This document shows positions 8,176-47,500 of a stretch of 64,000 nt of DNA, piece by piece (position 1 is the stretch's first letter; every line of letters starts with the position of its first letter). The notes beneath the pieces were generated by a model. The model made no database searches. It saw only the letters and a list, made by a program, of their open reading frames with translations, and had not been told where the DNA came from. The DNA is taken from NCBI GenBank assembly GCA_946894095.1, contig OX335641.1, forward strand, positions 15,580,501 to 15,644,500, written 5' to 3'. Both the position numbers and the translations under genes were made by a program. Source of the stretch: Incurvaria masculella. Its lineage: Eukaryota; Arthropoda; Insecta; Lepidoptera; Incurvariidae.

Positions 8176-8487
8176 AATAAAGGCGCGGTCAGGTTCTAGA
8201 CGAGGTTCTAGACCCTTTGAACGTTTAGGCTGGCCGTGGTTCGGATTTCAGATATAAACAGTGCGCTATGCTTGTTATTTCAGGAAAAAACGTAGATTTT
8301 CTCACAAAGTGGTAGAATTAATCCCACCCGGGATTCGTCTAATGTCTACAGTTTTATACGCTTCCGCTCCATAAAGATTTACTCCACGTTTTAAAAAAAC
8401 CATCTCAATATGTACATCATTCGCAATCCTCGTGACAGTGAGCTTCCCATAAACTGATGATCAAATGCATATTTTGTTTGTTTCTAG

Positions 8488-8545
8488 GATTATATCCAGA
8501 CCGCACGAATAAGTTGGAAGACGTATATCTGCGATTTTACAATGG
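8488..8545 (+). CDS. Lipase A exon 3 (first recognisable exon)
   Basis: Preceded by TTTCTAG and followed by GTAAGC. It encodes LYPDRTNKLEDVYLRFYN, phase 1 in and phase 2 out. Its length, 58 nt, equals that of lipase B exon 3 (38624-38681), which encodes the matching [11 protein letters not shown]. It corresponds to the N-terminal beta strand before the lipase core. The first 60 bp of the following intron also retain similarity to lipase B. Confidence 0.85.
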
Positions 8546-11500
8546 GTAAGCAAGGTTTTACAAGTTGCGTGTCTGCTAGAACATTGTACCTTAATTTTCC
8601 ACTAACGACCGTGTAAATCTGCCGTTCAAACTGGGTAAATCGCTATGTACTTACAACCAAAGAAGATTTTTTTCAACCTTACATACAGTTTTCCAAAATA
8701 ATTGGTTTGATGAATTGTAAATATGTATCATTGAGAACAGTATTTTACGTTATTAAGGGCCTGGTACTAGCCAAATCGCAAAGTTAGACGAGGCACCCCA
8801 AGTAAACTAACTAAGTCTGACGATTATAAGTGTCATCCTTACAATATATGATTCCTTGTCTAGGAATCGAATGATTTTCGTTAATGTATGTTTCCTTTTT
8901 CTATACAAAATACATTGCGGAAACGGTGTCCATTTCCGAACTTTTTTGACTAAATGTAGAAATCTAAAAGCAAATGGAATTTTTTGTTTATGCATATATG
9001 CTGTTTTTGCTTATATCTAGAAATCGAATGACTTTCAGATTTCTAATGAGAAAAATCAACTTTTTTTATTTTTATTATTATTTAAATAAATGATGGAATA
9101 AAAAAATATTAACAATCCATTATCAGTCTGGAGTTCTATTTGGATTTGCTGAAGCGTTTCACTACATATTATTACATTTGTTAAAAAGTGCATTTGTATG
9201 GCGCGAGTAGTTGGCTAGTCCTAGCGCCTTAACTCACTCAATTGGGTTCCATAAATCTTAGTGACCAGTAAGTACATCGATATATTGAAATAAATAAAAA
9301 ACTTAATTATTTACCATAATCCTGACAGGACCACCTTCGGAGAGTACGTGGATGTCCGCCTCGACCACGCTACTGACCTGCTCCGAGTCGATGGATTCAA
9401 CCCCACATGCCCAACAGTCCTCTACATACACGGGTTCATTGAAACAGCGCTGCAGGAGAGCGTGGAGGTGAGCTGTTTCACGCCGAACGGCTCACTATGC
9501 TATCGGTTGCTCACTTCCACCCCACCCTCTCCACATATACAGCTTCGTACATACAGCGCCGCTGGAGAGCATGGAGATGTGCTGCCTCACGAAGACTAGC
9601 TCACGTTACTATATGTTGCGCCCTAGTCTGCCCATCCTCCCCTACATACACGGGTTCACGGAGACAGCGCTGCAGGAGAGCGTGGAGGTGAGCTGTCTCA
9701 CGCCGACCGGCTCACTATGCTATCGGTTGCTCACTTCCACCCCACCCTCTCCACATATAGAGCTTCGTACATACAGCGCCGCTGGAGAGCATGGAGATGT
9801 GCTGCCTCACGAAGACTAGCTCACGTTACTATATGTTGCGCCCTAATCTGCCCATCCTCCTCTACATACCCGGGTTCACGGAGACAGCGCTGCAGGAGAG
9901 CGTGGAGGTGAGCTGTGTCACGCCGACCGGCTCACTATGCTATCGGTTGCTCACTTCCGCCCCACCCTCTCCACATAAACAGCTTCGTACATACAGCGCC
10001 GCTGGAGAGCATGGAGATGTGCTGCCTCACGAAGACTAGCTCACGTTACTATATGTTGCGCCCTAGTCTGCCCATCCTCCTCTACATACACGGGTTCACG
10101 GAGACAGCGCTGCAGGAGAGCGTGGAGGTGAGCTGTCTCACGCCGACCGGCTCACTATGCTATCGGTTGCTCACTTCCACCCCACCCTCTCCACATATAC
10201 AGCTTCGTTCATACAGCGCCGCTGGAGAGCATGGAGATGTGCTGCCTCACGAAGACTAGCTCACGTTACTATATGTTGCGCCCTAATCTGCCCATCCTCC
10301 TCTACATACCCGGGTTCACGGAGACAGCGCTGCAGGCGAGCGTGGAGGTGAGCTGTGTCATGCCGACCGGCTCACTATGTTATCGGTTGCTCACTTCCGC
10401 CCCACCCTCTCCACATAAACAGCTTCGTACATACAGCGCCGCTGGAGAGCATGGAGATGTGCTGCCTTACGAAGACTAGCTCACGTTACTATATGTTCCG
10501 CCCTAGTCTGCCCATCCTCCTCTATATACACGGGTTCACGGAGACAGCGATGCAGGAGAGCGTGGAGGTGAGCTGGCTTACGCCGACCGGCTCGCTATGC
10601 TACCGGTTGCTCACCTCCGCCCCACCCTATCTACATAAACAGCTTCGTACATACAGCGCCGCTGGAGAGCATGGAGATGCGCTGCCTCACGAAGACCAGC
10701 TCACGTTACTATATGTTGCGCCCTAGTCTGCTCATCCTCCTCTACATACACGGGTTCACGGAGACAGCGCTGCAGGAGAGCGTGGAGGTGAGCTGTCTCA
10801 CGCCGACCGGCTCACTATGCTATCGGTTGCTCACTTCCGCCCCACCCTCTCCACATAAACAGCTTCGTACATACAGCGCCGCTGGAGAGCATGGAGATGC
10901 GCTGCCTCACGAAGACCAGCTCACGTTACTATATGTTGCGCCCTAGTCTGCCCATCCTCCTCTACATACACGGGTTCACGGAGACTGCACTGCAGAAGAG
11001 TGTGGAGTTGAGCTGTCTCACGCCGACCGGCTCACTATGCTATCGGTTGCTCACTTCCGCCCCACCCTCTCCACATAAACAGCTTCGTACATACAGCGCC
11101 GCTGGAGAGCATGGAGATGCGCTGCCTCACGAAGACCAGCTCACGTTACTATATGTTGCGCCCTAGTCTGCCCATCCTCCTCTACATACCTACACGGGTT
11201 CACGGAGACAGCGCTGCAGAAGAGTGTGGAGGTGCGCTGTCTCACGCCGACCGGCTCACTATGCTATCGGTTGCTCACTTCCGCCCCACCCTCTCTACAT
11301 AAACGGCTGTGTACATACAGCGCCGCTAGAGAGCATGGAGATGTGCTGCCTCACGAAGACCAGCTCACGTTACTATATGTTGCGCCCTAGTCTGCCCATC
11401 CTCCTCTACATACCTACATGGGTTCACGGAGACTGCACTGCAGAAGAGTGTGGAGGTGAGCTGTCTCACGCCGACCGGCTCGCTATGCTATGGGTTGCTC

Positions 11501-14500
11501 ACTTCCGCCCCACCCTCTCTCCATAAACGGCTTCGTACAGACAGCGCCGCTGGAGAGCATGGAGATGTGCAGCCTCACGAAGACGAGCTCACGTTACTAT
11601 ATGTTGCGCCCTAGTCTGCCCATCCTCCTCTACATACACGGGTTTACGGAGGCAGTGCTGCAGGAGAGTGTGAAGGCGAGCTGTCTCACGCCGACCGGCC
11701 CACAATGCTATCGGTTACACACTCGCTCCCCACCCTCTCTACATAAACGGCTTCGTACAGACAGCGCCGCTGGAGAGGATGGAGATGAGCTGCCTCACGA
11801 AGATCAGCTCACGTTACTATTTGTTGCGCCGTAGCCTGCCCATCTACATGACAGTTTTATAGCGACAGCGCGACAGGAGAGCGTGGCAGAGTTCTGTCTG
11901 AGGTCAACCGGCTCACGGTGCTATTTGCGCCTCAATTAATCCTCTCCTCTACATTAATGGCTGCATAGAGAGAGTGCTGCAGGAGAGCAATGAGATTAAT
12001 ATCCGCTAATTTATGTATACACCGCTGTAGAAAAGCGAGGATGTGAGCTGTCTCACGCCGATAGGCTTGCGTTGCGAGCTGTTGTGCCCTCCCGCCCCAC
12101 CGTCCTCTACATGCATGAATCGCACCAGGTTCACGTTATTTTCTATTGGGCCTCCGCACCCCGCCGTCTTGTGCATAGACGTCTCATAGAGACATCGCTC
12201 CCAGAGTGCGTGGAAATTAACTGTTGAGTTAATGTTAGGTTAGCCATATGGTACGAATTCTGCTTCTGATGGTGGATCTTTGGTTCCAGGTGGTGATAAG
12301 TGCGTACCTACAGGGCAGACCAGAAACGAATCTGCTCCTCCTCGACTGGTCAAACATGTCACATGGTTCCTACCTTATCAACGCTGCACCCAACACTAAG
12401 AAGGTAAGCCTTCATATTGAATGAGGACCTAACCACTGCTCTTTCCAGAGTGAATAAGCAAATAATTTTGCGTGGGCAACGGGCATTGATAGTGAAGTTT
12501 TGGATAACTTAAAAAATTCAATACTCGCAAGACGTTGACTTTTTATGATTTGTCAAGCAAAAATCAAACATAAAGCTTCTTCATAAATAAAGTAGATTTT
12601 TATTATAAATCGAATCGGTAACGCACTAGGACATCACTGATCGATACGTACTCTCAAAAGTTAAATAAATGATTGGACGGACTAGTCTCGAAAACAAATT
12701 TCTTCAAGCGTTCATAGTAACACTGTAGTCCGTTTCAGGCGATGCGCAGTAGCACGTGCAAGTTTCCGGGGAACCTACAACATAACTAGGAATATCATTG
12801 AAAACACATATAATGTATTACAAAATTCTAGAAGTGAATAAGTTGATCGACTCGCCCCTCATGACGCATTGAAATTTTTAAAGTTTGATCATTTTTAGGC
12901 TTTCGTACCCAAAGGGTGTCAACGGAACCCTATTACTAAGACTCCGCTGTCCGTCCGTCCGTCTGCCATAGGGCTGTATCTCAGTAACCTTAACAGATAG
13001 ACAGCTGTAATTTTCACAGAGTGTGTATTTATTTTGCCGCTATAACAACAAATAGGTAAAATTAAAAAGTAATTAAAATTAAAGGGGGCCCCCACACAAA
13101 AAACGTGTTTTTTTGTATTAAATCTTTTACGATGGTACGGAACCCTTCGTGTGATAGTACGACTCGCATTTGGCCGGGTTTTTTTTATTAATGTTTTCTA
13201 TTTGTGCATACGTATGTCCCGTTGTGTCTATATTCTACCCCAACTATGCTTCCACCACTACGCTAGTACGAGGAAAATGCCTTTTTAGGGTTCCGTACCC
13301 AAAAGGTGCGAATGGAACTCTATTACTAAGCCTCCGCTGTCCGTCCATCAGTCCGTCCATCGATCACAGGGCTGCATCTCATAAACCGTAATAAATAGGT
13401 AAGCAGCTGAAATTTTCACAGAATATTTATTTATTTTGACGCTGTAACAACAAATAGGTTAAATTAAAAATATGAAAAATTAAACATTAACATTAACCTA
13501 AAAAAACTCTCCCGAAACGGAACCCTTCGTGTGCGAGTCCGATTCGCACTTGGCAGGTTTTTAGGGTTCTGCCAAGCCAAATGGTAAAAACGGAACCCTT
13601 AGTATTTCTTCCTGTCCATCGATCCGCCCGTCCGCATCCTTCCGTCTGTCCGTTGATATTTTACTTTTGCTCGACAAATCATCAAGAAACATCGTCTCAC
13701 GAGTATTGTTCACATTTTGCCAAAAGTATAATGAATTAATGTGATATGTATGTATCATCGACCGTGAAGCAAGGACACATTAATTGAAGAAGGAGCCCAG
13801 TAAAAATAACTACTTTACGAATATACTGCAAGGCTGGACCCGCAGCGCGATTACGAAGCTCGGCATGAGATGTAGATGTCGCACCTACCCCAAATTGACA
13901 GCAAACTGATGGCTTTCGAGTACAAAATATAATAGTTTGGGGTACTAACCGCACCAACACCTCATTTAGCGTTTCGTAATCGCACTGCGGTTGTCGGTCC
14001 TTCCATTTCGTAATCGCTATAGCTGGCAGATACAACCAACCTCCCCCGTTTCGTGCTTCGTAATCGCACTGCGGAACCAGCAAAACATACCATTCGCGGT
14101 TATTGCGTCTACCAATATCGCCACCGGCTGTATACCCATAATTTGGATTTCTCCTACAGTCCCTCCTCCCGTAATCAATGCCTCCTACTAACCACAGTGT
14201 TTAAGATTATACCTGCATACATTTATTTAACGCTTCATCGGCGTTGCGGACATTGACTGCAAAGATTGAACATTCAAACGTATTGCCGTCATCACCAAAA
14301 TCGTATTTGGCATCAGGCGCTAGAGCCAGTTCTAGGTTGACTTAAGTAAATATACTTTTTCGTACTAAGCAGGTACGTCGCTTGTTCCAAGGAATGTGAT
14401 ATGTATGTTGTATAATCAACCGTGAAGAAGAACTTAGTACGAAGAACCGGCCAAGTGCGAGTCGGACTCGCACACGGCCGGTTCCGTACCATCGTACAAA

Positions 14501-17500
14501 ATTGAAATAAAAACACGATTTTGTAAGGCACTTTTATTATGTTTTGGTTTTACCTTTTTACACTCTGAGAAAAATGCGGCTGCCTACCTATTACGGTTCA
14601 TGAGATACCGCCCTGTGACAGACGGACGGACGGAGGCTTAGTAATAGGGTTCCGTTTTCACCCTTTGGGTACGGAACCCTAAAAAGTATGTTTACTTAAG
14701 TATAATGAATGGTTGGACCGTCTCTATGTGTCGGCGGTGCGGTGCGGTGCGGTGCGCAGGTGGGCGTGGCGGCGGCGACGCACTTGCGGCGGCTGCTGGA
14801 GGCGGGCGTGCGCGCGGAGCGGCTGCACGTGGTGGGTCACTCGCTCGGCGGGCACGTGGCGGGCTACGTCGCGCGCGAGCTCCGACACAAGCACGGCCAC
14901 ACCGTCGGCAGGTATTCTAGCTTCGCCCTGCAGAGCTAAGGCGCTAAGAATTCTTTTTAGAGTTCCGTACCCAAAGAGTGCCAACGGGACCCTGTTACTA
15001 AGCCTCCGCTGTCCGTCCGTCCGTCCGTCTGTCACAGGGCTGTATCTCATGAACCGCAATAGGTAGACAGCTGAAATAACAACAAATAGTAAACATTAAA
15101 AAAACATTAACATTAGGTCTCCATGCAAGCAACTTGACTTTTTTGTGTTGAATCTTGTAAGACGATGCGGAACCCTTCGTGCGCGAGTCGCACTTGGCCG
15201 GTTTTTTATGTGACCTAACGGTGGCAATACACCGCATTCCAGAAGGAATTAGGTGCCATGGCAAGACCTTCCCTTTATGAGCACAGCTACATTGAACTAA
15301 ATGGAAAACACCAAGGCTTGACTGGAAGAAATCACTCTTAGTGATAAGTCCGCCTTTGTGCAGTATTGTTGTTTTGCTGTATGTTTTCTCTGTAATTGTA
15401 TTTTTGTTTATGCACAATAAAGAATGTATTCATTCATTCATTCATTCATTCATATTTTCATCCACACGTTGGCTTAACCCTACCACCTAGTAGGGAAAGG
15501 GCATCTAAAGTTCTACATGGATTAAGAACCATGGAACAACAGCTCGCATTCGTAACGAAATGCACTTATCCAACTCAGAAAGAAAAGAAAAGTTGTAAAT
15601 GAACTGGGCTTGAACTTAAACCATGATGGAAGGCAAGTCCACCCGCCGCTCAGCCACGAGCCATTCTGGATAAAGCTACTTTGATTTTATTTTTAGATTT
15701 ATTATAATTTGGAATTTTCCAACTCGCGGTAGCTGACGTCTCACTCCCATACTCTGTTCGTCTCGCAAGCACACCGCGCTGTGCTGCGTCGATGGTGAAA
15801 TCTCACTAATAGGCACGCGCCCCGCCATGGCCAGGGTGACGGCGCTCGACCCCGCCTTCCCCGCGTTCTACCCCGGCGGCGTGGTAATGGAGCACGTGTG
15901 CGCGGACGACGCGGCGTTCGTGGACGTGATCCACACGGACGCGGGCGGCTACGGCGCGCCGGTCTGCACCGGCACCGCGGACTTCTGGCCCAACGCCGGC
16001 AAGTCCACGCAGCCGGGGTGCCCGCGCTTCGCACCCATACCTCTCTCGGATAACAGTAAGCTCCATCATCTCATTCACTCTGATCAAATTCGTCGCTCTG
16101 TCCAACTTTCTGTTATTCAGTCTCTAGGCTTATAACTTGCGAACCGTTTACTCGATTTTAATGCGTTTTGTAAACTGTAAGTATAATTGATGACTCGCGT
16201 TTCTTCCAATTAATTATGTTTATGCTTACCATTATTACATATAATAAAAGTCTGAGTAGAGCAGAGCAATGAAAGATGGACCGGTGCACAGCTTTCTCTA
16301 TTGTATCGCATTGCATAATGACTTTAGAAGGCTGTAGTGTGAATAGCCGTCAAGATGAGGGTGGGTACCTCCAGTAGAGGATGGTCGAAAATTTCAACCG
16401 CTTTTTGTTTTAATCTAAACTCTGCGAGCGCGGCGCGCAAGCGGTGTGACGTAGAAAGTAGATCCTAATTGTAAACAAATTATGACACGCTATTAAGGTG
16501 GGTCATCCCGCTCAAGTCCCCATACAAAAGGAGAAAGAAGATCATGGCCACATTTCTTGTCAAAGATCCAAAATTTTACTTAAATTAGCTTTATTTGATC
16601 AAAAGAGATGTCTGATGACGGTTGGCATTGTAAAATTATGTTTGGTTTCTAAGGAGGTGGATTACTCAACGATAGAATAAAAACATATTGAAAAGATTAG
16701 TCATCAGACATAGCTTGTTTCTTGAAAATCTATAATCAATTCGGTTTTTGTTAGATTTTTGACTACAGCGGTCGTGGTTTACCATCAGCTATAAGTCGTT
16801 TTGAAATTAAAATTCTCGTAAATCTTACCAAATCAAACACTATACGCATTGTCTACTTTATGGACATGTTGCTGCCTTCTCATCACGGAGCCTGTCTTTT
16901 TCTTTGAAACAGAGAAGGCGCAATAGCACGGTTTTGTACCGTGCCCGCGATTGAGTTAGTCCCGCCAGGATGGGCCACCTTAACGTTATTTTCGCACAAA
17001 ATATCTAATATGTCAACTTAGTATTTTAATATTTTCTAGCATATATTGCAGAATACTTTTAGGTCATTTAAATATTTTGCTTTCAAGCATGCTGTTTTCG
17101 AAAAATACATTGTGTGAGTACCGACTTTCTACCCAATTTCTTAGACCTTATCTGTCAAACCTTGCAACATCCTTGGTCAACTGACCAAAAGACTGAGACT
17201 GTCAGCTTGATTGGCTGATATGAATTTTACCAACTAAAACGTAAACTACTAAAAACGTGTGCGCAGACCTTTGCAGCCACTGGCGCTCGTGGCGCTTCTA
17301 CGCGGAGTCCGTGCTGCGGCCGGACGCGTTCCCCGCCTCGCCCGCCGACTCCTACCAGCAGTTCCGCTCCAGCGGCGCGCCCGAACGGGGCCTCGTATAC
17401 ATGGGTGTCGACGTCGATACCAGGTAGCGCCGCAAACCTAGAACGGACCACGGCCCCTTTACCTCATGCCCCTCTATGTGGACTATTTGCTGAGACCAGG

Positions 17501-18716
17501 TGCATTCTCCGCCTCGCCCGCCGACTCCTACCAGCAGTTCCGCTCCAGCGGCGCGTCCGAACAGGGCCTCGTATACATGGGTGTCGACGTCGATACCAGG
17601 TAGCGCCGCAAACCTAGAACGGACCACGGCCCCTTACCTCATGCCCCTCAATGTGGACTATTTGCTGAGACCAGGTGCATTCCCTGCCTCGCCCGCCGCG
17701 CCCGAGTGGATCCTCGTATAGATATGGGTCCATGGTAGCGCGCGCCGTACTCTTTGAGCGGACCCTGGCTTTTGGCCCCTCTACGCGAAGTCTATGCTGC
17801 TGCCGCGCACGTTCCCCGCCTTGCCCACCGACTCCTACAAGCCGATGATGTCGAACATCAGGTAGCGCCCCACACCGAGAGCGGACAGAAGCCCATTGTT
17901 TCTGGCCCCTCTACGTGGAGTCTGTACTGCGGCCTGACGCGCCGACTCCAGCATTTCGCTAGAAAATTCGTTCCAGCGGCAAACCCAAGCGGGACCTCGT
18001 CTACATAGCTGCTGAGATCGACACCGGGTAGCGCCGCAAACCTAGAGCAGACAGCAGGATCTGTGGTCTCTCTATGCCTACGGTCTACGGTCGGGCGTGT
18101 TCCCCGCCTCATCTACATGGGCGTTGACCTCTACACCAGGTAGCGCCGCACACCTAGATCGAATCATAACGATCGAGTCTGTGATGGCGTCGGGCTCGTA
18201 ATTGTAGTTTCGCTCCAGAGGTTCGCTCTAGTGGGACCTCGCTTAGTGGTATACCTATATCGGACCTAAACCCATGATGTCTAGCCCCTCTAAGCGGTGT
18301 GGTGTATGTGAATCTTTTCAGATAAAAATCGTCAGCCCGCTCAAAATTCTCGCTCTTGCAGCAAGAATTACCAACACATCGACGCAATACAAACACACAG
18401 GACTTACATACAGATGCATTTGGCACCGCTGCTCCATCAAGGGGTGTAAGAATCTTGATCAGTTTACCAGGAAGTGAGGAAATAGAAACCTGATGTATGA
18501 AGATGGTTTCGAGATTCCATTCTGTCCTATTGATGTAGACCTTGGAATAAAAGGGACTATTTTTCTTTTCAGTGTAATGATATGGAAGCCTCTGATAATG
18601 CAACTTTCTCCTTTTTCAGTGCCACAGGATCCTACTACCTCGTCACCAACGCTCAGTCGCCGTTCGGCCGAGGCATCGCCGGACTGTACGCAAAAGGGGA
18701 CAAAAGTGCGAACTGA
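8488..18716 (+). CDS. Lipase A: neutral (pancreatic-type) lipase, exons 3-9
   Basis: Predicted secreted triacylglycerol lipase or phospholipase A1-like enzyme of the pancreatic lipase family (PF00151). Coding exons: 8488-8545, 9329-9467, 12290-12403, 14760-14911, 15835-16055, 17267-17423, 18620-18716. All are open and phase-compatible, giving about 312 residues; the 5' signal-peptide exons are not securely located. Visible: oxyanion-side IHGF (exon 4), nucleophile GHSLG (exon 6), Asp in TALDPA (exon 7), His in LCSHWRSW (exon 8). Between the lid cysteines (PGC...CSH) there are 13 residues, against 23 in human pancreatic lipase, so the lid is short, as in insect lipases and phospholipases A1. 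Insect relatives usually act in midgut fat digestion; that role is inferred. If the 5' exons are truly lost the locus may be decaying, but no internal frame break is present. Confidence 0.85.
8757..9228. mobile_element. piggyBac-type MITE, family 2, copy 1
   Basis: 472 bp between TTAA duplications (8753-8756, 9229-9232). Imperfect inverted ends: GGGCCTGGTACTAGCC and GGCTAGTCCTAGCGCC. It has no coding capacity and lies in lipase A intron 3. A second, inverted copy interrupted by a SINE is at 49241-50078. Confidence 0.75.
9329..9467 (+). CDS. Lipase A exon 4
   Basis: Starts after CCTGACAG and ends before the donor GTGAGC at 9468. It encodes TTFGEYVDVRLDHATDLLRV... and ends [14 protein letters not shown]; the HGF near the end is the family's oxyanion-side motif. 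The 139-nt length is identical to lipase B exon 4 (42970-43108), which supports choosing the first donor and not one of the ten further donor-like copies downstream. The last 60 bp of this exon seed the array at 9408-12225. Using a later donor would run through stops such as the TAG after PHED near 9600. Confidence 0.85.
9408..12225 (+). repeat. Tandem array of exon-4 3' end + donor + intron start (220-bp dimeric unit)
   Basis: The donor-equivalent position recurs at 9468, 9688, 9908, 10128, 10348, 10568, 10788, 11008, 11232, 11456 and 11676: exactly 220 bp, then 224 twice from a CTAC insertion, then 220. Each unit holds two related halves. Half A reads CTACATACACGGG...GTGGAG|GTGAGCTGT; half B reads CCACATATACAGC...ATGGAG|ATGTGCTGC, with the donor GT lost. 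From 11830 to 12225 further units decay. Some late A halves have lost the donor (TTGAGC at 11008, GCGAGC at 11676). Overlapping frames of 60-120 codons here are by-products of the repeat, not genes. Confidence 0.95.
12290..12403 (+). CDS. Lipase A exon 5
   Basis: Phase-0 exon (114 nt, 38 codons) between TGGTTCCAG and GTAAGC. It encodes VVISAYLQGRPETNLLLLDW, then SNMSHGSYLINAAPNTKK. The LLLLDWS strand matches the family's central-sheet strand before the nucleophile-elbow helix. The matching lipase B exon (46731-46841) is one codon shorter. It begins about 65 bp after the decayed edge of the array. Confidence 0.85.
12895..13188 (+). repeat. GTTCCGTACC repeat, near full length
   Basis: A nearly complete family copy shows the anatomy: left end (here CTTTCGTACCCAAAGGGT), ACGGAACCCTATTACTAAG, (GTCC)n, the GGGCTGTATCTCA core, GCCGCTATAACAACAAATAGG, a GGGGGCCCCCA segment, then GATGGTACGGAACCCTTCG (complement of the left end) and a terminal CGAGTCCGACTCGCA-type hairpin followed by TTGGCCGGTTTTTT. 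The inner GTTCCGTACC/GGTACGGAAC pair about 240 bp apart looks like inverted ends. Transposon class unresolved. Confidence 0.8.
13283..13562 (+). repeat. GTTCCGTACC repeat, full-length copy
   Basis: Starts TTTTTAGGGTTCCGTACC and ends GAGTCCGATTCGCACTTGGC. It lies 95 bp after the previous copy in the same orientation; the GGGCCC segment is replaced by an AT-rich stretch. It abuts a shorter degenerate relative (to about 13660) beginning TTAGGGTTCTGCCAAGCC. Confidence 0.75.
13735..14435. repeat. Composite of inverted repeat-family Q fragments
   Basis: Segments match 31305-31620 and 21955-22105. Shared pieces include ATACTGCAAGGCTGGACC, GAAGAAGGAGCCCAGTAAAA, TGCGGACATTGACTGCAAAG and GTACGTCGCTTGTTCCAAGG. 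A GTAATCGCACTGCGG motif recurs inside. The order and orientation differ between copies, so the element boundary is unclear. No coding content was recognised. Confidence 0.5.
14444..14690 (-). repeat. GTTCCGTACC repeat, reverse copy
   Basis: Reverse-strand copy from ACCGGCCAAGTGCGAGTCGG to ACGGAACCCTAAAAA, with a short ACGG run of three units. It lies 70 bp upstream of lipase A exon 6, so that exon is framed by reverse and forward copies. Confidence 0.8.
14760..14911 (+). CDS. Lipase A exon 6 (nucleophile Ser exon)
   Basis: 152 nt, phase 0 in and phase 2 out, between a GGTGCGCAG acceptor and the donor GTATTC. It encodes VGVAAATHLRRLLEAG... then LHVVGHSLGGHVAGYVAREL. GHSLG is the nucleophile elbow with the catalytic Ser, and HSLGGHVAG is near-invariant in the family. 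The exon is very GC-rich against an AT-rich intron, and much richer than its lipase B counterpart (61425-61570). Confidence 0.9.
14954..15208 (+). repeat. GTTCCGTACC repeat, 43 bp after exon 6
   Basis: Complete at both ends (AGAGTTCCGTACCC...; ...CGGAACCCTTCG...TTGGCCGGTTTTTT) but lacks the GCCGCTATA part of the middle. Its hairpin end is shortened to GCGCGAGTCGCAC. Confidence 0.75.
15212..15325 (-). mobile_element. SINE body fragment (reverse)
   Basis: The reverse complement reads GGTGTTTTCCATTTAGTTCA... and ...GGCACCTAATTCC..., matching the body of the SINEs at 36376-36800 and 49615-49999. The head and poly-A tail are absent. Confidence 0.6.
15327..15455 (+). mobile_element. LINE/SINE 3' tail ending in an ATTC microsatellite
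   Basis: GTGATAAGTCCGCCTTTGTG..., a pyrimidine-rich stretch and CACAATAAAGAATGTATTC are followed by six ATTC units. The same tail lies inverted at 58770-58885. The AATAAA plus tetranucleotide tail suggests the 3' end of a retroelement family. Confidence 0.55.
15835..16055 (+). CDS. Lipase A exon 7 (catalytic Asp exon)
   Basis: 221 nt; AG|G completes Arg, then VTALDPAFPAFY carries the catalytic Asp. It continues FVDVIHTDAGGYG and ends QPGCPRFAPIPLSDN. Lipase B exon 7 (63486-63703) is three bases shorter and keeps [20 protein letters not shown] and FAPIPLSND. The first Cys of the lid pair is in PGC. The exon is strongly GC-rich. The first 14 bp after the donor (GTAAGCTCCATCAT) are nearly identical to lipase B. 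Confidence 0.9.
16056..16496. other. Lipase A intron 7, unannotated part
   Basis: AT-rich intron with no recognised repeat or exon apart from a GC-rich patch around 16425-16445 (GAGCGCGGCGCGCAAG). Confidence 0.5.
16497..16979. mobile_element. piggyBac-type MITE, family 1, copy 2
   Basis: 483 bp between TTAA duplications (16493-16496, 16980-16983). It aligns in reverse to 5350-5881 throughout (shared blocks include the CAGCGGTCGTGGTTTAC segment and GTCTGATGAC). The left end has diverged to GGTGGGTCATCCCG; the right keeps GGGCCACC. It lies in lipase A intron 7. Confidence 0.8.
17267..17423 (+). CDS. Lipase A exon 8 (catalytic His exon)
   Basis: 157 nt, phase 1 in and phase 2 out, from GTGCGCAG to the donor GTAGCG. 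With the split codon it encodes NLCSHWRSWRFYAESVLRPD..., then GLVYMGVDVDT. CSHWRSWRFYAES carries the second lid cysteine and the catalytic His. The donor GTAGCG is non-optimal. This exon's 3' end, donor included, is serially copied in the following 750 bp. Confidence 0.9.
17424..18320 (+). repeat. Serial degenerate copies of exon-8 3' end + donor
   Basis: After the true donor (17424), donor-like GTAGCGC junctions preceded by exon-8 sequence recur at 17600, 17735, 17862, 18028 and 18140. The first copy (17503-17600) is almost identical to the exon, including GACGTCGATACCAG|GTAGCGCCGC; later copies are increasingly diverged (stops, deletions). All copies lack the exon's 5' part and acceptor. 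Traces (CTCTAAGCGGTGTGG) may reach 18310. Confidence 0.9.
18620..18716 (+). CDS. Lipase A terminal exon 9
   Basis: After CTTTTTCAG the exon completes the split Ser codon and encodes ATGSYYLVTNAQSPFGRGIA..., ending GDKSAN with TGA at 18714-18716. The G-YYL-TN-QSPF motif is typical of the C-terminus of short insect lipases that lack the PLAT domain. No close AATAAA is evident in the next 100 bp. Confidence 0.85.
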
Positions 18717-19053
18717 TATTAACAAGTTGCCTTCGATATAATGATGGGTCCACACGAAGACTTTCTTGTTCGGGGGTGATGCATTACAAATTATATGGGT
18801 GTACGAGTGTAAGGGTCAGTAAAGCCTAAGCTGTTTCAAAGAGCAAGCTCCCAAAGTAAAGCAGTGTACGCACACACATCGCTCCTCAGCTTAGCCTCGT
18901 GACCCTAGCAGGGTGCAACGTTTTCGTTGATTTCTTAAGGAAGGCTTACATAATCCATTACGCTGTAGCTTTTTCGGGGTTCGGACGTTATATGTGTAAA
19001 CAACTGCATGGTTTAAGAATGTTTCCAAAAGGGAAGAAACTCAACAAAACTAA

Positions 19054-22923: not shown

Positions 22924-24186
22924 GTTTTTAGGGTTCCGTACCCAAAGCGTGAAAAGGGAACCCTATTACTAAGCCTCCGCTGTCCGTCCGTCTGTCCGTG
23001 CGTCCGTCCCTGCGTCCGTCCGTCTGTCACAGAGCTGTATCTCTTGAACTACGGTTCATCGGTTATTACGATAGGTAGGCAGCTGAAATTTTCACAGAGT
23101 GTGTATTTATTTTGCCGCTATAACAAAAAATAGGCAAAATAAAAAAATAATAAAAAATAAAGAGGGGGCGCCTACAATATTAAGTTTGACGGCTTACCGC
23201 GCGTGTGAGGAGCAGGACGTGCTGCTCGACGTTTCGGAGCCTCACATGGGCTCCATCTTCAGGAGAACGTGCCTGTCGCGACGGAGGTAGGCACGTTACT
23301 GGCTACCCGCCGCTTTGCTTTACTTCTCAGCGTCCATGGCAACACTCGTACATTTTCTTGAGGATTAGCTGCGGTCCGAATTTCATGTGAAGTGCAAAAC
23401 ACGCTGACTGTGTTTTCCTCGACGTCTGTTGTCGGTGCACCTCTCCGAAATTCAGTTCTCAGCTTATTCAGCACGGGTTTCCATATGGGCGAAAGACGGT
23501 AGGAATCTTCACGATTGAAGTTCTTGTGCTTGCTGATTTCGATGGACTCCCGAATGATTCGTGGGAGGTTTCGTTGTTCAGGTACTAGGACTTTCACCTG
23601 ATCAAACCTCAACCAGTGCCCAGGTCCAGATTCTGCATGCTCACACAGCGCTGACTTCGTGATATCTCTGTTCTTAACCGCCCGTATGTGCTCCGTGATG
23701 CGTGTGCTGACGCTCCTCTTCGTTTGGCCAATGTACGATTTACCGCATGAACAGGGAACTCTGTAGACGCCAGCGGCGAGTAATGGTACCTTGTCCTTCA
23801 CTGATCGGAGCATGGCTGAGACCTTGCGTTGAGGATACAGCACGGCTGGTATGCTGGATCTCCTCAGTATCCTCGCAATACGGTCTGTCACTCCCCTGAT
23901 GTACGGCAGGTATGCGGCTCGCCTCTTGACGTCATACTGTGGTTGTCGTTCTTTCCTTCTGGTTCTCCAATCTCTTGCCTTATAACCATTGCCTTGCAGC
24001 ACTGTCTCAATGAATTTAATTTCCGCAGCAATGTGTAGTGGATCACAAAGACGTTCCGCTCTCTGTAGAAGTGATTTTGGTACCGATTGTAAGCGCCTAT
24101 ACAAAAAACGTGATTTTTTGTGTTAAATCTTGTAGGATGGTACAGAACCCTTCGTGTGCGATTCCGACTCGCACTTGGCCGGTTTT
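22924..24186 (+). repeat. GTTCCGTACC repeat split by a Penelope-like element
   Basis: The left part (22924-23185) runs from GGGTTCCGTACCCAAAG to GAGGGGGCGCCTAC. The right part resumes at about 24090 with GCGCCTATACAAAAAACG and ends at the hairpin and TTGGCCGGTTTTTT. The shared GCGCCTA at both junctions is a plausible target-site duplication of the inserted element. Confidence 0.8.
23186..24104 (-). mobile_element. Penelope-like element, C-terminal part with GIY-YIG nuclease
   Basis: A 281-codon reverse-strand frame (23259-24104) carries the linker downstream of the reverse transcriptase, then GVYRVPCSCGKSYIGQTKRS and RITEH, the GIY-YIG endonuclease of Penelope-like retroelements with its added CSC residues. 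Later residues NFNREDSYRLSPIW are typical of the PLE C-terminus. The reverse transcriptase is absent, so the copy is 5'-truncated; the remaining frame is open. Confidence 0.85.
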
Positions 24187-31770: not shown

Positions 31771-32553
31771 TTAGGGTTCCGTACCAAAAGAGTGAAAACG
31801 GAACCCTATTACTAAATTCAAATTCAAATTGTTTATTCAACCACAACACACGAAAATACCAAAACACTAATTAATCAAGTAAATAAAAAAAGTAACACAA
31901 GTTATATAATAATGTACTATTATCATTTTAGACCTCGAGGCTTATGTTGTGTTGCACTGAATGGGTAGGTATGCTCTCAGCTGGTACGCAGCAAACGCTG
32001 CGAAGCTGGTTTTCAGCGCATCCTTTTCCAAAGTCCTTTAATACATGAGGAGCGGGTGAGGGTGTGTGTGAGGGTGTGTAGAAAAGTGACAATGAGGGAA
32101 GGTGTGTACGTGAATGAGAGCGTATGCGTGCGAGTAAGAGGGAGGAAGTAGCGAGAAAATTAAATATGTATTATAAAAAGTTAAAAGGTGTATTGTAAGG
32201 TTGGCATTTACTGTTTTTGTCTAGTCATAATATGATCCCTAACTGATTTTATAAAAAATATTTTTGATTGACTAAGCCTCCGCTGTCCGTCCGTACGTCC
32301 GTCCGTCCGTCCGTCCGTCCGTCCGTCCGTCCGTCCGTCCGTCCGTCCGTCCGTCCGTCCGTCCATCCGTCCGTCTGTTACAGGGCTGTATCTCATGAAC
32401 CGTAATAGGTGGGCAGCTGAAATTTTCACAGAGTGGGCACAAGGTGGGCACAAGGTGGGCCCAATACAAAAAACCAGTTTTTTTGTGTTAAATCTTGTAC
32501 GGTGGTACGGAACCCTTCGTGTGCAATTCCGACTCGCACTTGGCCGGTTTTTT
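31771..32553 (+). repeat. GTTCCGTACC repeat with expanded (GTCC)n, split by a LINE tail
   Basis: The left end (31771-31815) reaches ATTACTAA, is interrupted to about 32268, and resumes at ACTAAGCCTCCGC. The GTCC tract (about 32287-32376) has about 20 units, far longer than the 3-5 units of most copies. A GTGGGCACAAG unit is triplicated near 32434. Confidence 0.8.
31816..32268 (-). mobile_element. LINE 3' end inserted in the repeat
   Basis: About 450 bp starting ATTCAAATTCAAATTGTTTA, a common reverse-strand 3' terminus of lepidopteran CR1-type LINEs. It is flanked by ACTAA on both sides (possible target duplication). It contains GTGTGTGAGGGTGTG-type runs and no reverse transcriptase domain. 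Confidence 0.5.
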
Positions 32554-34372: not shown

Positions 34373-34655
34373 AAAAAAACCGGCCAAGTGCGAGTCGAAC
34401 TCGCACACGAAGGGTTCCGTACCATCGTACAAGATTGTACACTAAAAAATCACGTTTCTTAACCCCCCTTTAATTTTTATATTTTACCTATTTGTTGTTA
34501 TAGCGGCAAAATAAATACACATTCTGTGAAAATTTCAGCTGCCTACCTATTACGGTTCATGAGATACAGCCCTGTGACAGACGGACGGACGGACGGACGG
34601 ACGGACGGACAGCGGAGGCTTAGTAATAGGGTTCCGTTTTCACCCTTTGGGGACC
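34373..34655 (-). repeat. GTTCCGTACC repeat, reverse copy
   Basis: Complete from ACCGGCCAAGTGCGAGTCG to GGGTTCCGTTTTCACCC with about seven ACGG units. It abuts the gypsy shard. Confidence 0.8.
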
Positions 34656-41500: not shown

Positions 41501-44500
41501 TTTGACACGGATAATGTAGCTTTCCATTGGTGAAATAATTATTAGAATCGCTTAAGTTTTTCTAAAGATTACCCTGTACAAACAAAAAAAACGACATTAC
41601 CTCTTTATATAATAGTGTTGAATAGTGTAGAGGCAGATAGAATATATTTATACAGGTTAAGATCGTGACAAGCTTTTATTACATTTTAATAAGTTTTATG
41701 ATGTTTAAAGTGGGTGGGTTTGATTTAATTTGAAATTTATTTTCTTCTTTTTAGAGCATTTCAATAAAATCTTGCTTTTAAAAAACCTTTTTTACTCTAA
41801 ATTTTAAGACTTGCATTCGGAACTAAGTTATTCACCTCACCTCACCCGCATATTAATCACCAATAATATTTCTCAAAGCTACACCTATTCATCTAAACAC
41901 GTCTACACACACATTACAAGTCCCACTCATACACACTCGTACATATTTACTAATAAAATAGGTACTTCCTTGGAAATATAAGTATGTTCAGCCCATTGCG
42001 CGCGCATGCTAGGCCAAACATGGATTTAGCCTCTATTTCCTATGAGACAGCCTACAGGCAAGTGTTAATGTGAATCATTTGTGTATTTATTTCTCAATAA
42101 ACTCTTTATATTCTATTCTAAAAACTTCAGATTAGCCCAGCGGGTGATCCTGTGAAGTTTCGTAGCGATCGGATCGACAGATTATTTTTAGTTTTTTGTT
42201 ATTTGCGAGAAAATCACATTAAATTCGCAGGGCGAGCGCGGAACGAATTTATCTTAGTCCCGCCCGACATAGGTCCCGACAAAGAATACTCACCCTGAGT
42301 GAGTCACTCACTGTGTGAACTGTCACCCATACATCAACGAATTGCATTTTTCTGTGGCATATATATCAGTTTTAAAATTGCGTAAATAAAAAATGTAATA
42401 TTATATTATCTATGAAAAAAAACCCGTGCGACGCGCCAGGGCGGGTCGCTAGTACATAATATATCGTGTAACGAACACCATTCCTACCGTGTGTCCCTTT
42501 TGTGTTTTTTTATAATGAACATGATATATTCATACTTTTGGATGTTCTGAGTTTCGGGCTTTATGAAGGCGACCCTCCACGACACCTCTCGTATTTTTAT
42601 TTCATTTCATTTCATTTTTATTCACCTATATACCTATATACCTATATACATACACTCAGATACGTCAGATGGTTGCAAGAAGTAACATAGAAATATGCAA
42701 TAAACATCTCAGATCGTGTAAACATTTCTAGTATTATTATAAAGGTTTGCTTTCAATATCAGCTGTAAAGAGGCCTTGTCATAAATAGAGAGTCAGATAA
42801 AAAAGAATACATTAATGATTAGATTGTCCAATATAATATATAATATTATTGAGGAGATATTATATCTACCCAGTCAGTAGGCGTTCAGAAACTTGGAAAA
42901 TAGGTATAATTGTTACGCAGATATAACGCATTAATTAAATTAATTAGTTATTCACGGTGATCCTGACAGGGACACCACCGACGAGTACGTGGACGTCCAC
43001 CTCTTCAACTGCAGTGACCTGCTCCAAGTCGAAGGCTTTAATTCCTTACGCCCCTCCATGGTATACGCACACGGGTTCAACGAGTCCGTCAACAAAAACA
43101 GCACGATGGTAAGCTGTCTCACGCCGACCGGTTCACGTTGCTATCTGCCCCAACCCTTCTTGGCAGAAATTTTAAATACCAATAAATACACTCACAAAAA
43201 TTAAATTATTTGAATTATATTATCAAAAAAATATACCCTATGAACTAATTAGCGCTAGAATTAGCCTCCAACACGGTTCGACGATGCACTGGGTCGGACA
43301 AAATATTTAGAGGTAATACCGTCAAAATGACTGTTCCATCCAGCCTAATTCGTTTAGATTACATTTCGATTGGTGACATAAGACCCTAGAATTACTGTAT
43401 CCGAGTTTACTTAATAAGCATTTTTCTGCAAACATGGTTATTATAAAAACTTGATATTGAACTATTTTATGATTCAGACTAATCAAAGTTGGGCATTGTC
43501 ATTAAAATTCAAGCCGTAAATTAATTTAAAAACATTTTAAAATGCGATACCTTCGACAAAATAAGAGGTGAGGGTTTTATTTTATTTAATTCAGTAATCG
43601 ATTATCTAGTGTTTGGAATTTTGGATCTTTTCGTCATTTGGAAAGATTTTTCATTTTGGCTATATACTCGTACTAATTGCTATTATTTAAAACATGACCG
43701 ATTCTGAGCAATTCAGGGACGAATTCCCCCAGAATCGCTCTTATTTAAATTCATTGTAATTAATTTAAAGCCAAAATAAAAAAAATCGTCAAGCGCTATA
43801 CTAGAAGACCGATTGGTGAATATAAAAGAAATATAACCTCACCGCTCATGTTGCAAGAGTTATTGCGCTTTGTAAATTTTCAAACCAGTTAAAGGCTTGA
43901 ATATTAATGACAAGGATCAACTTTTATTAAGTAATTTAAATAACAAAATAAATCTATGTCAAGTTTTTCCGATAATCGTGTTTGCAAATAATTGTTTATT
44001 CTGAAAACTAAAATATAAAACCGTAGCTTATCGGATACAATCATTTTAGGGTCATAAGTCACCCTCATAGAGACACCGCTGCAGGAGAGCATGGAGATGA
44101 GCTGTCTCTCGCGGCCGCGAGACGGCCTACGCTACATAGAGACAGCGCTGCAGGAGAGCATGGAGATGAGCTGTCTCGCGCGGCCGCGAGACGGCCTACG
44201 CTACATAGAGACAGCGCTGCAGGAGAGCATGGAGATGAGATGTCTCGCGCGGCCGCGAGACGGCCTACGCTACATAGAGACAGCGCTGCAGGAGAGCATT
44301 GAGATAAGCTGTCTCGCGCGGCCGCGAGACGGCCTACGCTACATAGAGACAGCGCTGCAGGAGAGCATGGAGATGAGCTGTCTCGCGCGGCCGCGAGACG
44401 GCCTACGCTATATAGAGACAGCGCTGCAGGAGAGCATGGAGATGAGCTGTCTCGCGGCCGCGAGACGGCCTACGCTACATAGAGACAGCGCTGCAGGAGA

Positions 44501-47500
44501 GCATGGATATGAGCTGTCTCGCGCGGCCGCGAGACGGCCTACGCTACATAGAGACAGCGCTGCAGGAGCGCATGGAGATGAGCTGTCTCTCGCGGCCGCG
44601 AGACGGCCTACGCTACATAGAGACAGCGCTGCAGGAGAGCATGGAGATGAGCTGTCTCTAGCGGCCGCGAGACGGCTTACGCTACATCTGTTCCGCTGTT
44701 TCGCTCCACCCACATAAACAAGATATACAGGCTTACACAATGTCAAATATTGTATACAGATGCCACTGCAAGAAAACTTACTTCACAAAACACGATTTTC
44801 CTGATGACGGTAATATGTTTGAATGCTCTATCTTTCAAATATTTGCTCGATCGATACATGAGGCTACATTCCCCATTAAATGGAAAGAAGCTAACGTCAT
44901 TCCAGTACATAAAAAAGGCTCGAGGACAAGCATTGAAAACTATCGTGGGATATCAATTCTCAACATATTTGGCAAGTTATTTGAGCGAGTTGTATCAGAA
45001 GCCATCCGCCCCACTATAACAAGTAGAATTTCCGAAAACCAGCATGGATTTATAAAGAGTAGATCCACAACAACTAATCTTACTCAATTTCTCGACTTAA
45101 TTATCAAAGATTTGACTGATTTTGAAAAGGCTTTCGATCGTGTAGATCACATCAACTTAGCCAAAAAACTTCAACACTTAGGTATACATGGCGATTTATT
45201 AAGATGGTTTGAATAATATTTGTCAAATCGTTCACAAGCAGTTGAAATGAATGGGCGGTTTCAAATCTAATTACATAACCATACGTTCTGGGTTTCCGCA
45301 GGGATCAATTCTCGGGCCCTTTTTCTACAATGCCTATCCATGCGACATAGGTAACTACATCTTAAACTCCAAATGTTTACTCTATGCAGATGACAAAAAG
45401 TATCAGGAAACTAGATGACTGCAAAGTATTACAATGTGACTTAAAACTTTCTTTCGAACTATTATTCAAAAAAATAGAATAATTGTCAGCATTAAAAAGT
45501 ATATGAAAATTTCATTGACTCGCAGTTTAAAGCCGATACTTTTACTCCATGAACAATATTATACCACACATGTAAAATGGGTAAGGATTTGGCGGTCATG
45601 TTAGATTCCAAACTAGTTTTTACTCATAATTTAGATATCATAACTGATAAAGCATACAAAAACTTGGGTTTTATCATACGTATAGGTAAACAATTCTCCA
45701 ATATTGAATGGTTAAAAAACTTTATTGTGCCTATGTACGCAGTATTCTTGAATATGAATCGGTTATATAGCCACCTCAATATTTAACACACAAGGCAAGG
45801 ATAGAAAGAATGTAGAACAAATTCATTAAATATTTTAATTTTAAAACAAAACATGGTTATAATATATACTCGGATAGTTGTAGTCATTATCGATTACTAA
45901 CCCTGGAAGAGAGAAGATTACTTTTAGATATGACATTTCTTTTTGACATTGTCAGCAGTGGTATTGACTGCCCACAGCTAATCGCGCAAATTAAATACAA
46001 TGTTCCTGCTCGCCGTACGCGCCATACCCACCTCTTCCATAATCCATTACATCGCACTAATAACACCCAAAATCTTACAATAATTAGACTTACAAATGTT
46101 TATAATAATAGTTTTAGTTCAATTAAAATATTTTGTACCACCAAACAAACATTCAAAAATGAAATAGAAAAATTTTTTTTGACTCTAAACTTATTTTTTC
46201 TTTAAATAAACCGACTCTAACGACACCCGCCACCTTATTGTAATGAACAAGTGCTTCCCACACACATATATACATGCGTGCTTACCCTCACACCCTCATA
46301 TACAAACACCATATCTAGCCCTCGCTCATACTCATTCTAAACTAATAATCCAATTTGCACAGTAGAAACAATAACAATAAAACTCTTAAATTTATTAAAC
46401 CTTATGATAATAACTAGGTGAACTACAGACTATAAACGTAGACTCAATTATGTAAAACATAGTGGTAATCTTTTATCGGCTTTTTGACTGTTCTATTTTT
46501 ATGTGAAAATGTATAGAAAAACCCAAATAAAATAAATAAAAAAATCTAAAATTATATTCGATGTATTCATAGAGAAAGCGCTGCATAAGAGCGTGAAAGT
46601 GATCTTTCTCGCGCGGACCATCGTTATATTTTGTTTACTTGACTTTGCGATTTGGTTGGATTTCTGCGTGTGTGATTATGTACTTATCTTATATTAATAA
46701 CTAACATAGCTACCCGTGTATCCAATACAGACGGTAATTGGTGCGACCCTGCAACTCCCACTGCCCATCAATGTGGCAGCAATCGACTGGTCCAGCTTGG
46801 CAAATGGCTCCTACCTCACCGCTGCTCCCAACACTGAGAAGGTACGTGTTCCTAATGTATACAGTAGATACCCGCGGCTCCACCCGCGTTAACCGCCAAC
46901 AAAAGTCATGCCTAATGACTGCTTTACCCCTTAGGTAATATCGCATTATGGTGGGAAATACATTATAATGATAAATACAAAATGGGAAAAAATACGTAAT
47001 GGGAAAAATTAAGCTATTCATACGTAGAAACCAATATGTGGTAGAAACCGCATCGCATTCGGGTATTGGTTTTGAAGTTATAAGCGGACAGATAGACAGA
47101 AAAACAGGCGTTGGGTTTTATAAGAGTGTGTGATATATTATGCAACTAGCTGAAATCCCCAGCTCCATTCGGCTGTATTTAGGTTCGGGCAATCGGCCAT
47201 TGGAGCCCAGGGAAAACCCCGTTTGCCCCGACACGCTGCGTATCGCTTCACCCGCCCGCGCTATCACACCTACCTCGTTTTCGCTTAGCGTTCTTTCTGA
47301 CCATTTAACTTTTTTGGGGTTCCGTACCCAAAGGGGTTCAACGGAACCCTTTCACTAAGCCTCCGCTGTCCGTCCGTCCGTCCGTCTGTCACAGGGCTAC
47401 ATCTCATGAACCGTAATAGGTAGGCAGCTGAAAATTTCACAGAATGAGCATGGTGCGGTGGGAAACGGAAAAAGGGACTCACTCACGGTTTGTAGACGCC

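Follow-up and report, generated by a model that had tools for sequence, protein, structure and literature searches.

A dimeric tandem array of splice-donor junctions in an intron of a lepidopteran pancreatic-lipase-like gene

The DNA considered here is a stretch of 64,000 nucleotides from the lepidopteran Incurvaria masculella (assembly GCA_946894095.1, contig OX335641.1, positions 15,580,501 to 15,644,500 of the forward strand), hereafter called the window, within which all coordinates are counted. It has a G+C content of 41.5% and contains two tandem lepidopteran lipase genes, lipase A and lipase B, whose exons were located by tblastn with lepidopteran pancreatic-lipase-like proteins against the window and are numbered as in a preliminary description of this DNA. 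Translated, the exons match pancreatic-lipase-like proteins from moths and butterflies. Here we report that intron 4 of lipase A (9468-12289) is filled by imperfect tandem copies of the splice junction that precedes it. These copies span 9418-12225: they begin within exon 4 (9329..9467, + strand), whose last 50 base pairs (bp; 9418-9467) are the left part of the first array unit, and the last decayed copy lies about 65 bp 5' of exon 5 (12290..12403, + strand).

The repeated segment reaches 50 bp upstream and 59 bp downstream of the exon 4 donor, and the array consists of 11 units (9418..11844, + strand), each made of an A half, in which the donor is mostly kept, and a B half, in which AT stands for GT. 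Tandem Repeats Finder called both levels of this organization, one at a period of 220 bp (9418-11844, 11.0 copies, 94% matches) and the other at a period of 109 bp (9420-11829, 21.9 copies, 67% matches). A and B motifs are spaced by 109 and 111 bp in most of the array, while two B-to-A steps near the 3' end measure 115 bp; the unit length is 220 bp in units 1-8, then 224, 224 and 219 bp. Alignment of the junction to its own intron gave BLASTN E values down to 1e-68, by which chance is excluded. Downstream of the regular units, four diverged half-copies form a decayed edge (about 11836..12225, + strand), with donor positions at 11889, 11995, 12043 and 12216. The preliminary description had claimed a tandem repetition of the exon 4 end together with its GT donor and the intron start, 11 recognizable copies, a dimeric unit of about 109+111 bp and a decayed edge; the period-220 call and its copy number, the period-109 call with the motif spacing, and the four further half-copies (approximately 11843-12225) agree with it on each of these points.

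The true donor of exon 4, GTGAGC in the context GAG|GTGAGC, was read in the sequence at 9468..9473 (+ strand), and it lies within unit 1, such that the canonical donor of exon 4 is itself part of the array. Identical donors (GAG|GTGAGC) are present at eight positions, the true one at 9468 and others at 9688, 9908, 10128, 10348, 10568, 10788 and 11456, and strong donor copies do therefore stand directly behind the true donor, as had been stated, from 9688 onward. The earlier claim of eight donors at an exact 220-bp period holds for their number but not for their spacing: only the first seven follow one another in exact 220-bp steps, and the next position, at 11008, reads TT. The remaining A positions read GTGCGC at 11232 and GC at 11676. 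Likewise, the generalization that half A keeps the donor and half B has lost it is fully accurate for the B halves, where AT occupies the place of GT in 11 of 11, and accurate for most A halves, but not for those at 11008 and 11676.

In a half-unit phylogeny, the A and B halves fell on two sides of a single branch with 100/100 support, and this split was recovered in 100% of 200 bootstrap trees; the two halves thus cluster apart, as anticipated. Identity between units is graded, from 86 to 99%, and the array matches a unit shifted by one half at only about 68-73%. Whole dimers are more alike than their own halves, which is a property by which a higher-order repeat is recognized, and the alternating halves with their separate clades bear out the proposal of a satellite-like higher order inside a gene, seeded by an exon end. 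In the higher-order repeats of alpha-satellite DNA, diverged monomers become fixed in a multimer that is then amplified. The lipase A array resembles them in having diverged monomers within an amplified multimer, and differs in comprising 11 units inside a gene, in being seeded by an exon end and in not being centromeric.

A second junction array is present in intron 8 of the same gene (17424..18160, + strand). It is seeded by the 3' end of exon 8 (17267..17423, + strand, located by tblastn, its start set at an ag|A border read off the sequence), and its donors, GTAGCGCC, stand at 17424 (the true one), 17600, 17862, 18028 and 18140. The nearest copy is 97% identical over 105 bp, and further ones are 79-84% identical over 41-84 bp. 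Both this array and the copies in intron 4 of lipase B, taken up below, had been missed by the preliminary description. In a donor-side screen of 12 exon ends, in which several exon borders were one to a few bases off, junction copies were detected behind exons 4 and 8 of lipase A; exon 6 of lipase B was followed by copies of intron sequence only, and exon 3 of lipase B gave one 17-bp match. In this screen exon 9 of lipase A is a last exon without a donor, and only 290 bp lie behind exon 7 of lipase B. No acceptor-side copies were found upstream of the 12 exon starts examined, the three matches before exon 6 of lipase A falling within the intron and on the other strand. The two seeded junctions rank first and third of 11 in G+C content (0.642 and 0.567, against 0.415 for the window) in a scan of G+C and reading frame where exon 8 was begun one base early, so that its open frame came in two pieces, and a simple G-quadruplex (G4) pattern had no match in the three arrays. 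A separate 72-bp array of 4.9 copies (61598-61949) begins about 27 bp behind the donor of lipase B exon 6 and contains no donor copy.

Junction copies are also present in the paralog. Intron 4 of lipase B contains nine 69-bp units with copies of the exon 4 junction (44066..44687, + strand), all of which read AT for the donor GT (9/9), and a lone diverged copy (46566..46617, + strand), situated about 115 bp before exon 5 of that gene, in which the GT is kept (AAA|GTGATC). The copies read FIETALQES or near it, as in the lepidopteran family, whereas exon 4 of lipase B itself (42970..43108, + strand) ends differently; its own junction has no copies in its intron, and the array found there resembles the exon end of lipase A. 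Two further features were seen among these copies, a reverse-transcriptase fragment at 44662-45213 (RVT_1, E 1e-10), which lies between them, and a near-palindrome around CGCGGCCGCG within the 69-bp unit (44135-44203 and its repeats), the fold of which (z -2.01) is better than that of most shuffles.

Comparison of the two genes suggests that the dead-donor type may predate the split between lipases A and B. That the array of lipase A and the copies of lipase B were not inherited from a common ancestor, and instead arose independently or were transferred by gene conversion from A to B, is conceivable though somewhat doubtful. The periods differ (220 versus 69 bp), and the two genes (42970-43145 in lipase B) are 84% identical in the initial 37 bases of intron 4 but 44% identical in the final 32 of exon 4, the reverse of what is usual and odd for plain descent. 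Moreover, alignments of the two genes at the starts of introns 5 and 6 are no better than those of shuffled sequence, and at the 3' end of intron 4 there is only a weak alignment (score 18). Against this, the B halves, the paralog units and one edge copy of A fall into one group with 84/86 support (45 columns, bootstrap unsettled), and CATAGAGA is common to eight of the nine paralog units, the lone copy at 46566 and two A edge copies, while being found neither in the exon nor in the main units. In addition, intron 3 aligns between A and B both at its start (score 31, where the best of 500 shuffles reached 24) and at its end (score 35, with no shuffle control), which indicates that some inherited intron sequence survives. 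The likeness of the intron 4 starts as a sign of conversion is weakened by the alignment of intron 3, and is not removed, given that introns 5 and 6 do not align.

The eight identical donors share the same predicted pairing with the 5' end of U1, -9.7 kcal/mol, a value attained, in a scan of the window's + strand, by 32 of 3619 GT sites, the eight included. Past exon 4, the first in-frame stop is a TAG at 9597, 5' of every extra donor, and past exon 8 it is a TAG at 17425; every extra donor would therefore give an early stop. These two properties could be expected if the donor copies formed a functional splicing brake, where binding of U1 small nuclear ribonucleoprotein or splicing from the copies to exon 5 leads to early stops and the length of the array tunes lipase output. 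A precedent for the use of such sites comes from the variable-number tandem repeat (VNTR) of ABCA7, which carries donors and of which the second donor is used in complementary DNA (cDNA), as reported in the available sections of PMC5954066. We nevertheless regard a brake of this kind as improbable. Across the ten intronic A copies, variation affects 4 of 90 cells at the donor bases (-3 to +6) and 39 of 880 cells in the remaining columns between -38 and +59 (Fisher P 1.0), and conservation of the donor above the rest of the unit was thus not detected in this small sample; donor bases that drift at the unit-wide rate favour passive copying, with the donors neither retained nor eliminated. The GT is missing from 11 of 11 B halves and from all nine 69-bp paralog units, and in ABCA7 the use of the second donor is independent of VNTR length (PMC5954066, same sections).

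A different functional reading, in which the array supplies pseudo-exons, with A halves as extra exons and CCCTAG 61 bp upstream as the acceptor, appears scarcely credible. An AG does precede the donor position in eight of the ten intronic A copies, at a distance of 61 bp in six of them and 65 bp in two, but a single inclusion would shift the frame because neither 61 nor 65 is a multiple of 3, the AG has become AA in two units, and no pyrimidine-rich tract was visible by eye before the AG. A hairpin hiding the donors was considered separately and rejected. The best donor-covering stem measures 12 bp in seven intronic A copies, formed with a segment 41-52 bases into the intron, and the true donor, one of 11 donors tested, also has a stem of 12 bp (P 0.021 versus shuffled intron); stems are shorter at 11008, 11232 and 11676 (6, 9 and 6 bp), and folding energies were unremarkable for an A half (z -0.22), a B half (z 1.19) and a piece of intron 8 (z 0.76). 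In the hairpin test the donors of exon 7 of both lipases had been placed one base early.

Based on these observations, we think it likely that the array is a neutral satellite of the intron, derived from a splice junction and anchored at the exon. Tandem duplication would first have affected some 110 bp, made up of the end of exon 4 (50 bp), the donor and the adjoining 59 bp of intron. One copy would have lost its donor through a change of GT to AT, and the resulting pair of a live A and a dead B half would then have multiplied in steps of 220 bp, through unequal exchange or slippage during replication, and probably in blocks of 440 bp as well. The 5' end would be anchored, because unit 1 holds the real exon, which is kept by selection, and the 3' end would decay. 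Splicing would most likely take place at the first donor, the sole source of full protein, and the copies may be viewed as passengers resembling strong donors, which could be tolerated because their use would only yield early-stop transcripts. A like process may have acted at the exon 8 junction, and at the exon 4 junction before or during the split between lipases A and B.

The divergence among copies is informative about how such growth may have proceeded. With distance from the exon, identity falls both for the B halves relative to their own consensus (Spearman -0.85, P 0.0009) and for the A copies relative to the true junction (Spearman -0.77, P 0.009). Within units 2-5 (9638..10517, + strand) the closest pairs are not neighbours but units 2 and 4 (98.6%) and units 3 and 5 (97.7%), which have departures from the consensus in common; this suggests a possible duplication of a 440-bp block on top of the 220-bp period, which is uncertain because unit 3 also matches unit 7 at 98.2%. 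At the GFIE residue, the exon in unit 1 encodes Ile (ATT) and the ten intronic A copies encode Thr (ACG), whereas ATA (Ile) is found in the nine paralog units, in the copy at 46566 and, at the decayed edge of the A array, in three of four copies (11889, 11995 and 12216). Among the first 42 listed homologues, Ile occupies this residue in 29 and Val in 4, and the motif was unmatched in 9. Since the intronic A copies have Thr where the exon and most of these listed homologues have Ile, the main units probably go back to a copy already inside the intron and were not amplified anew from the exon, which selection would have held in place.

Several results sit less comfortably with a neutral satellite born from the junction. 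The distance gradient is not significant when A halves are compared with their own consensus (Spearman -0.44, P 0.18). ACG is common to all ten intronic A copies and absent from the exon, and the copies were therefore not made one by one from the present exon. When the edge and paralog copies are added in a 45-column core, the A copies no longer form one group. Finally, mild selection on the donors could have been missed, as only 90 donor cells were compared. The array could also owe its size to short or noisy reads that inflated a duplication of one or two copies in the assembly, which we hold to be very unlikely: units differ from one another by a graded 1-14%, and this range of identities (86-99%) speaks against a simple assembly duplication; the two half-types alternate regularly, and a similar array with another spacing occurs at a different junction. 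A dispersed element was tried as a further candidate and set aside, in that one stretch of the array searched as protein gave four candidates, none at E <= 0.1, and a core pattern had no matches in viral contigs, results that are compatible with copies elsewhere in this genome.

The satellite-like growth proposed for lipase A has counterparts in published systems, for which our statements extend to the available sections of each article. The closest is exon stuttering on the dot chromosomes of the chicken, in which an exon edge and its splice donor or acceptor are copied through the adjacent intron (Hron et al. 2026, PMC12954441). It affects 236 introns in 115 genes, and dot chromosomes carry 190 of these introns; over 90% of the sources lie within 1 base of an exon border, and exon parts of 20-187 bp are present in 1-44 copies (PMC12954441). 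Its authors did not find it in other vertebrate genomes, gerbil genes excepted, and the word "insect" is absent from the main text; the defining features include extensive length variation among individuals and a link to GC-rich sequence (PMC12954441). As in the chicken, an exon edge with its donor runs in tandem through the next intron of lipase A, the exon is intact and the copies are imperfect, and an exon part of 50 bp in 11 copies falls inside the ranges given. Of the features that define stuttering, lipase A has an intron filled by imperfect tandem copies and the inclusion of exon edge and splice site, at exons 4 and 8. It differs from the chicken cases in belonging to an insect, in lying in a window of 41.5% G+C with no dot chromosome known, in having regular dimers with one half devoid of a donor, which the available sections do not describe, and in having copies in common with a paralog.

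Other known repeats share individual properties with the lipase A array. The 25-bp unit of the human ABCA7 intron 18 VNTR (2018) contains the donor of exon 18, and a frameshift results when the second donor is used, as was seen in cDNA (PMC5954066). There too the array starts at and includes the donor of the exon, and units can carry GT; the ABCA7 unit has no exon sequence, as it starts at the GT, and that repeat differs further in having about 12 to 427 units, in being tied to disease and in the lack of any mention of dimer order in those sections. Internal tandem repeats at exon-intron boundaries of human segmental duplications have a mean of four 30-bp units, and half of them are in coding exons (PMC2812944). 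They are similar in that tandem units at exon-intron borders of recently duplicated genes have changed gene structure, and dissimilar in that the lipase A array is a 220-bp dimer confined to the intron. In an RNA-dependent RNA polymerase gene of potato, a tandem duplication across an intron-exon boundary copied the splice signals and led to intron gain (PMC4974935); potato gained a new intron, whereas in lipase A a pre-existing intron became longer, with no new acceptor apparent.

In light of the instability recently described in birds, the lipase A array most likely represents an insect example of an already known type of intron instability, and not a new regulatory device. Searches of open-licence papers, some of them aimed at insects or Lepidoptera, brought up no other insect case of exon-edge copying. 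What is new is the occurrence in an insect, the dimeric higher order and the counterparts in a paralog. The bird-type instability would thereby extend to a gene of an insect, within a window whose base composition is ordinary, and such instability can evidently be ordered like a satellite and have paralog counterparts. With up to eight identical donors, the locus also lends itself as a natural experiment on how the spliceosome selects the first one. More speculatively, donor junctions might act as seeds of tandem amplification in animals at large, beyond the dot chromosomes of birds, with the exon as the site of selection as a fixed anchor and donor loss in one half of a dimer allowing an array to outlast gene duplication. 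Three of the four long-period arrays (>= 60 bp) in the window begin less than 100 bp from a lipase donor, a result reached by 12 of 100,000 random placements, in a test chosen post hoc and with one of these arrays, that behind lipase B exon 6, lacking a donor copy.

The two genes that carry the junction copies are represented in the window by exons 3 to 9 of lipase A (about 8487 to 18718, + strand) and exons 3 to 7 of lipase B (about 38623 to 63710, by tblastn). The exons of lipase A include the motifs GHSLG, LDPAF and CSHWRS, the last in exon 8, which we take to have roles in catalysis. The borders of its exons 6 and 7 are approximate, and its exons 1 and 2 were not found in the window. The end of exon 4 fits an annotated Maniola isoform, in which ESVQ is joined to VGAV and the next exon is seemingly absent. 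A composite of lipase A is 66-71% identical to the first 30 matches listed, none of the listed proteins being near-identical, and the Pfam family Lipase (PF00151) was recognized in three of five query pieces, one of them below the curated cut-off (24.9 versus 27 bits). In a protein tree of lipases A and B with 53 homologues, hand-picked from 120 listed, the branch of lipase B is very long and its placement unsure; the row nearest to lipase B, with 50% identity, is lipase A.

Intron 5 of lipase B contains, on the minus strand, a 1708-amino-acid open frame (50889-56015) that by its look resembles a Bel-Pao type retroelement polyprotein. Microsatellites of the form (GTCC)n or (GACG)n are present at 22982-23028, 32285-32375, 34576-34610 and 57667-57769.

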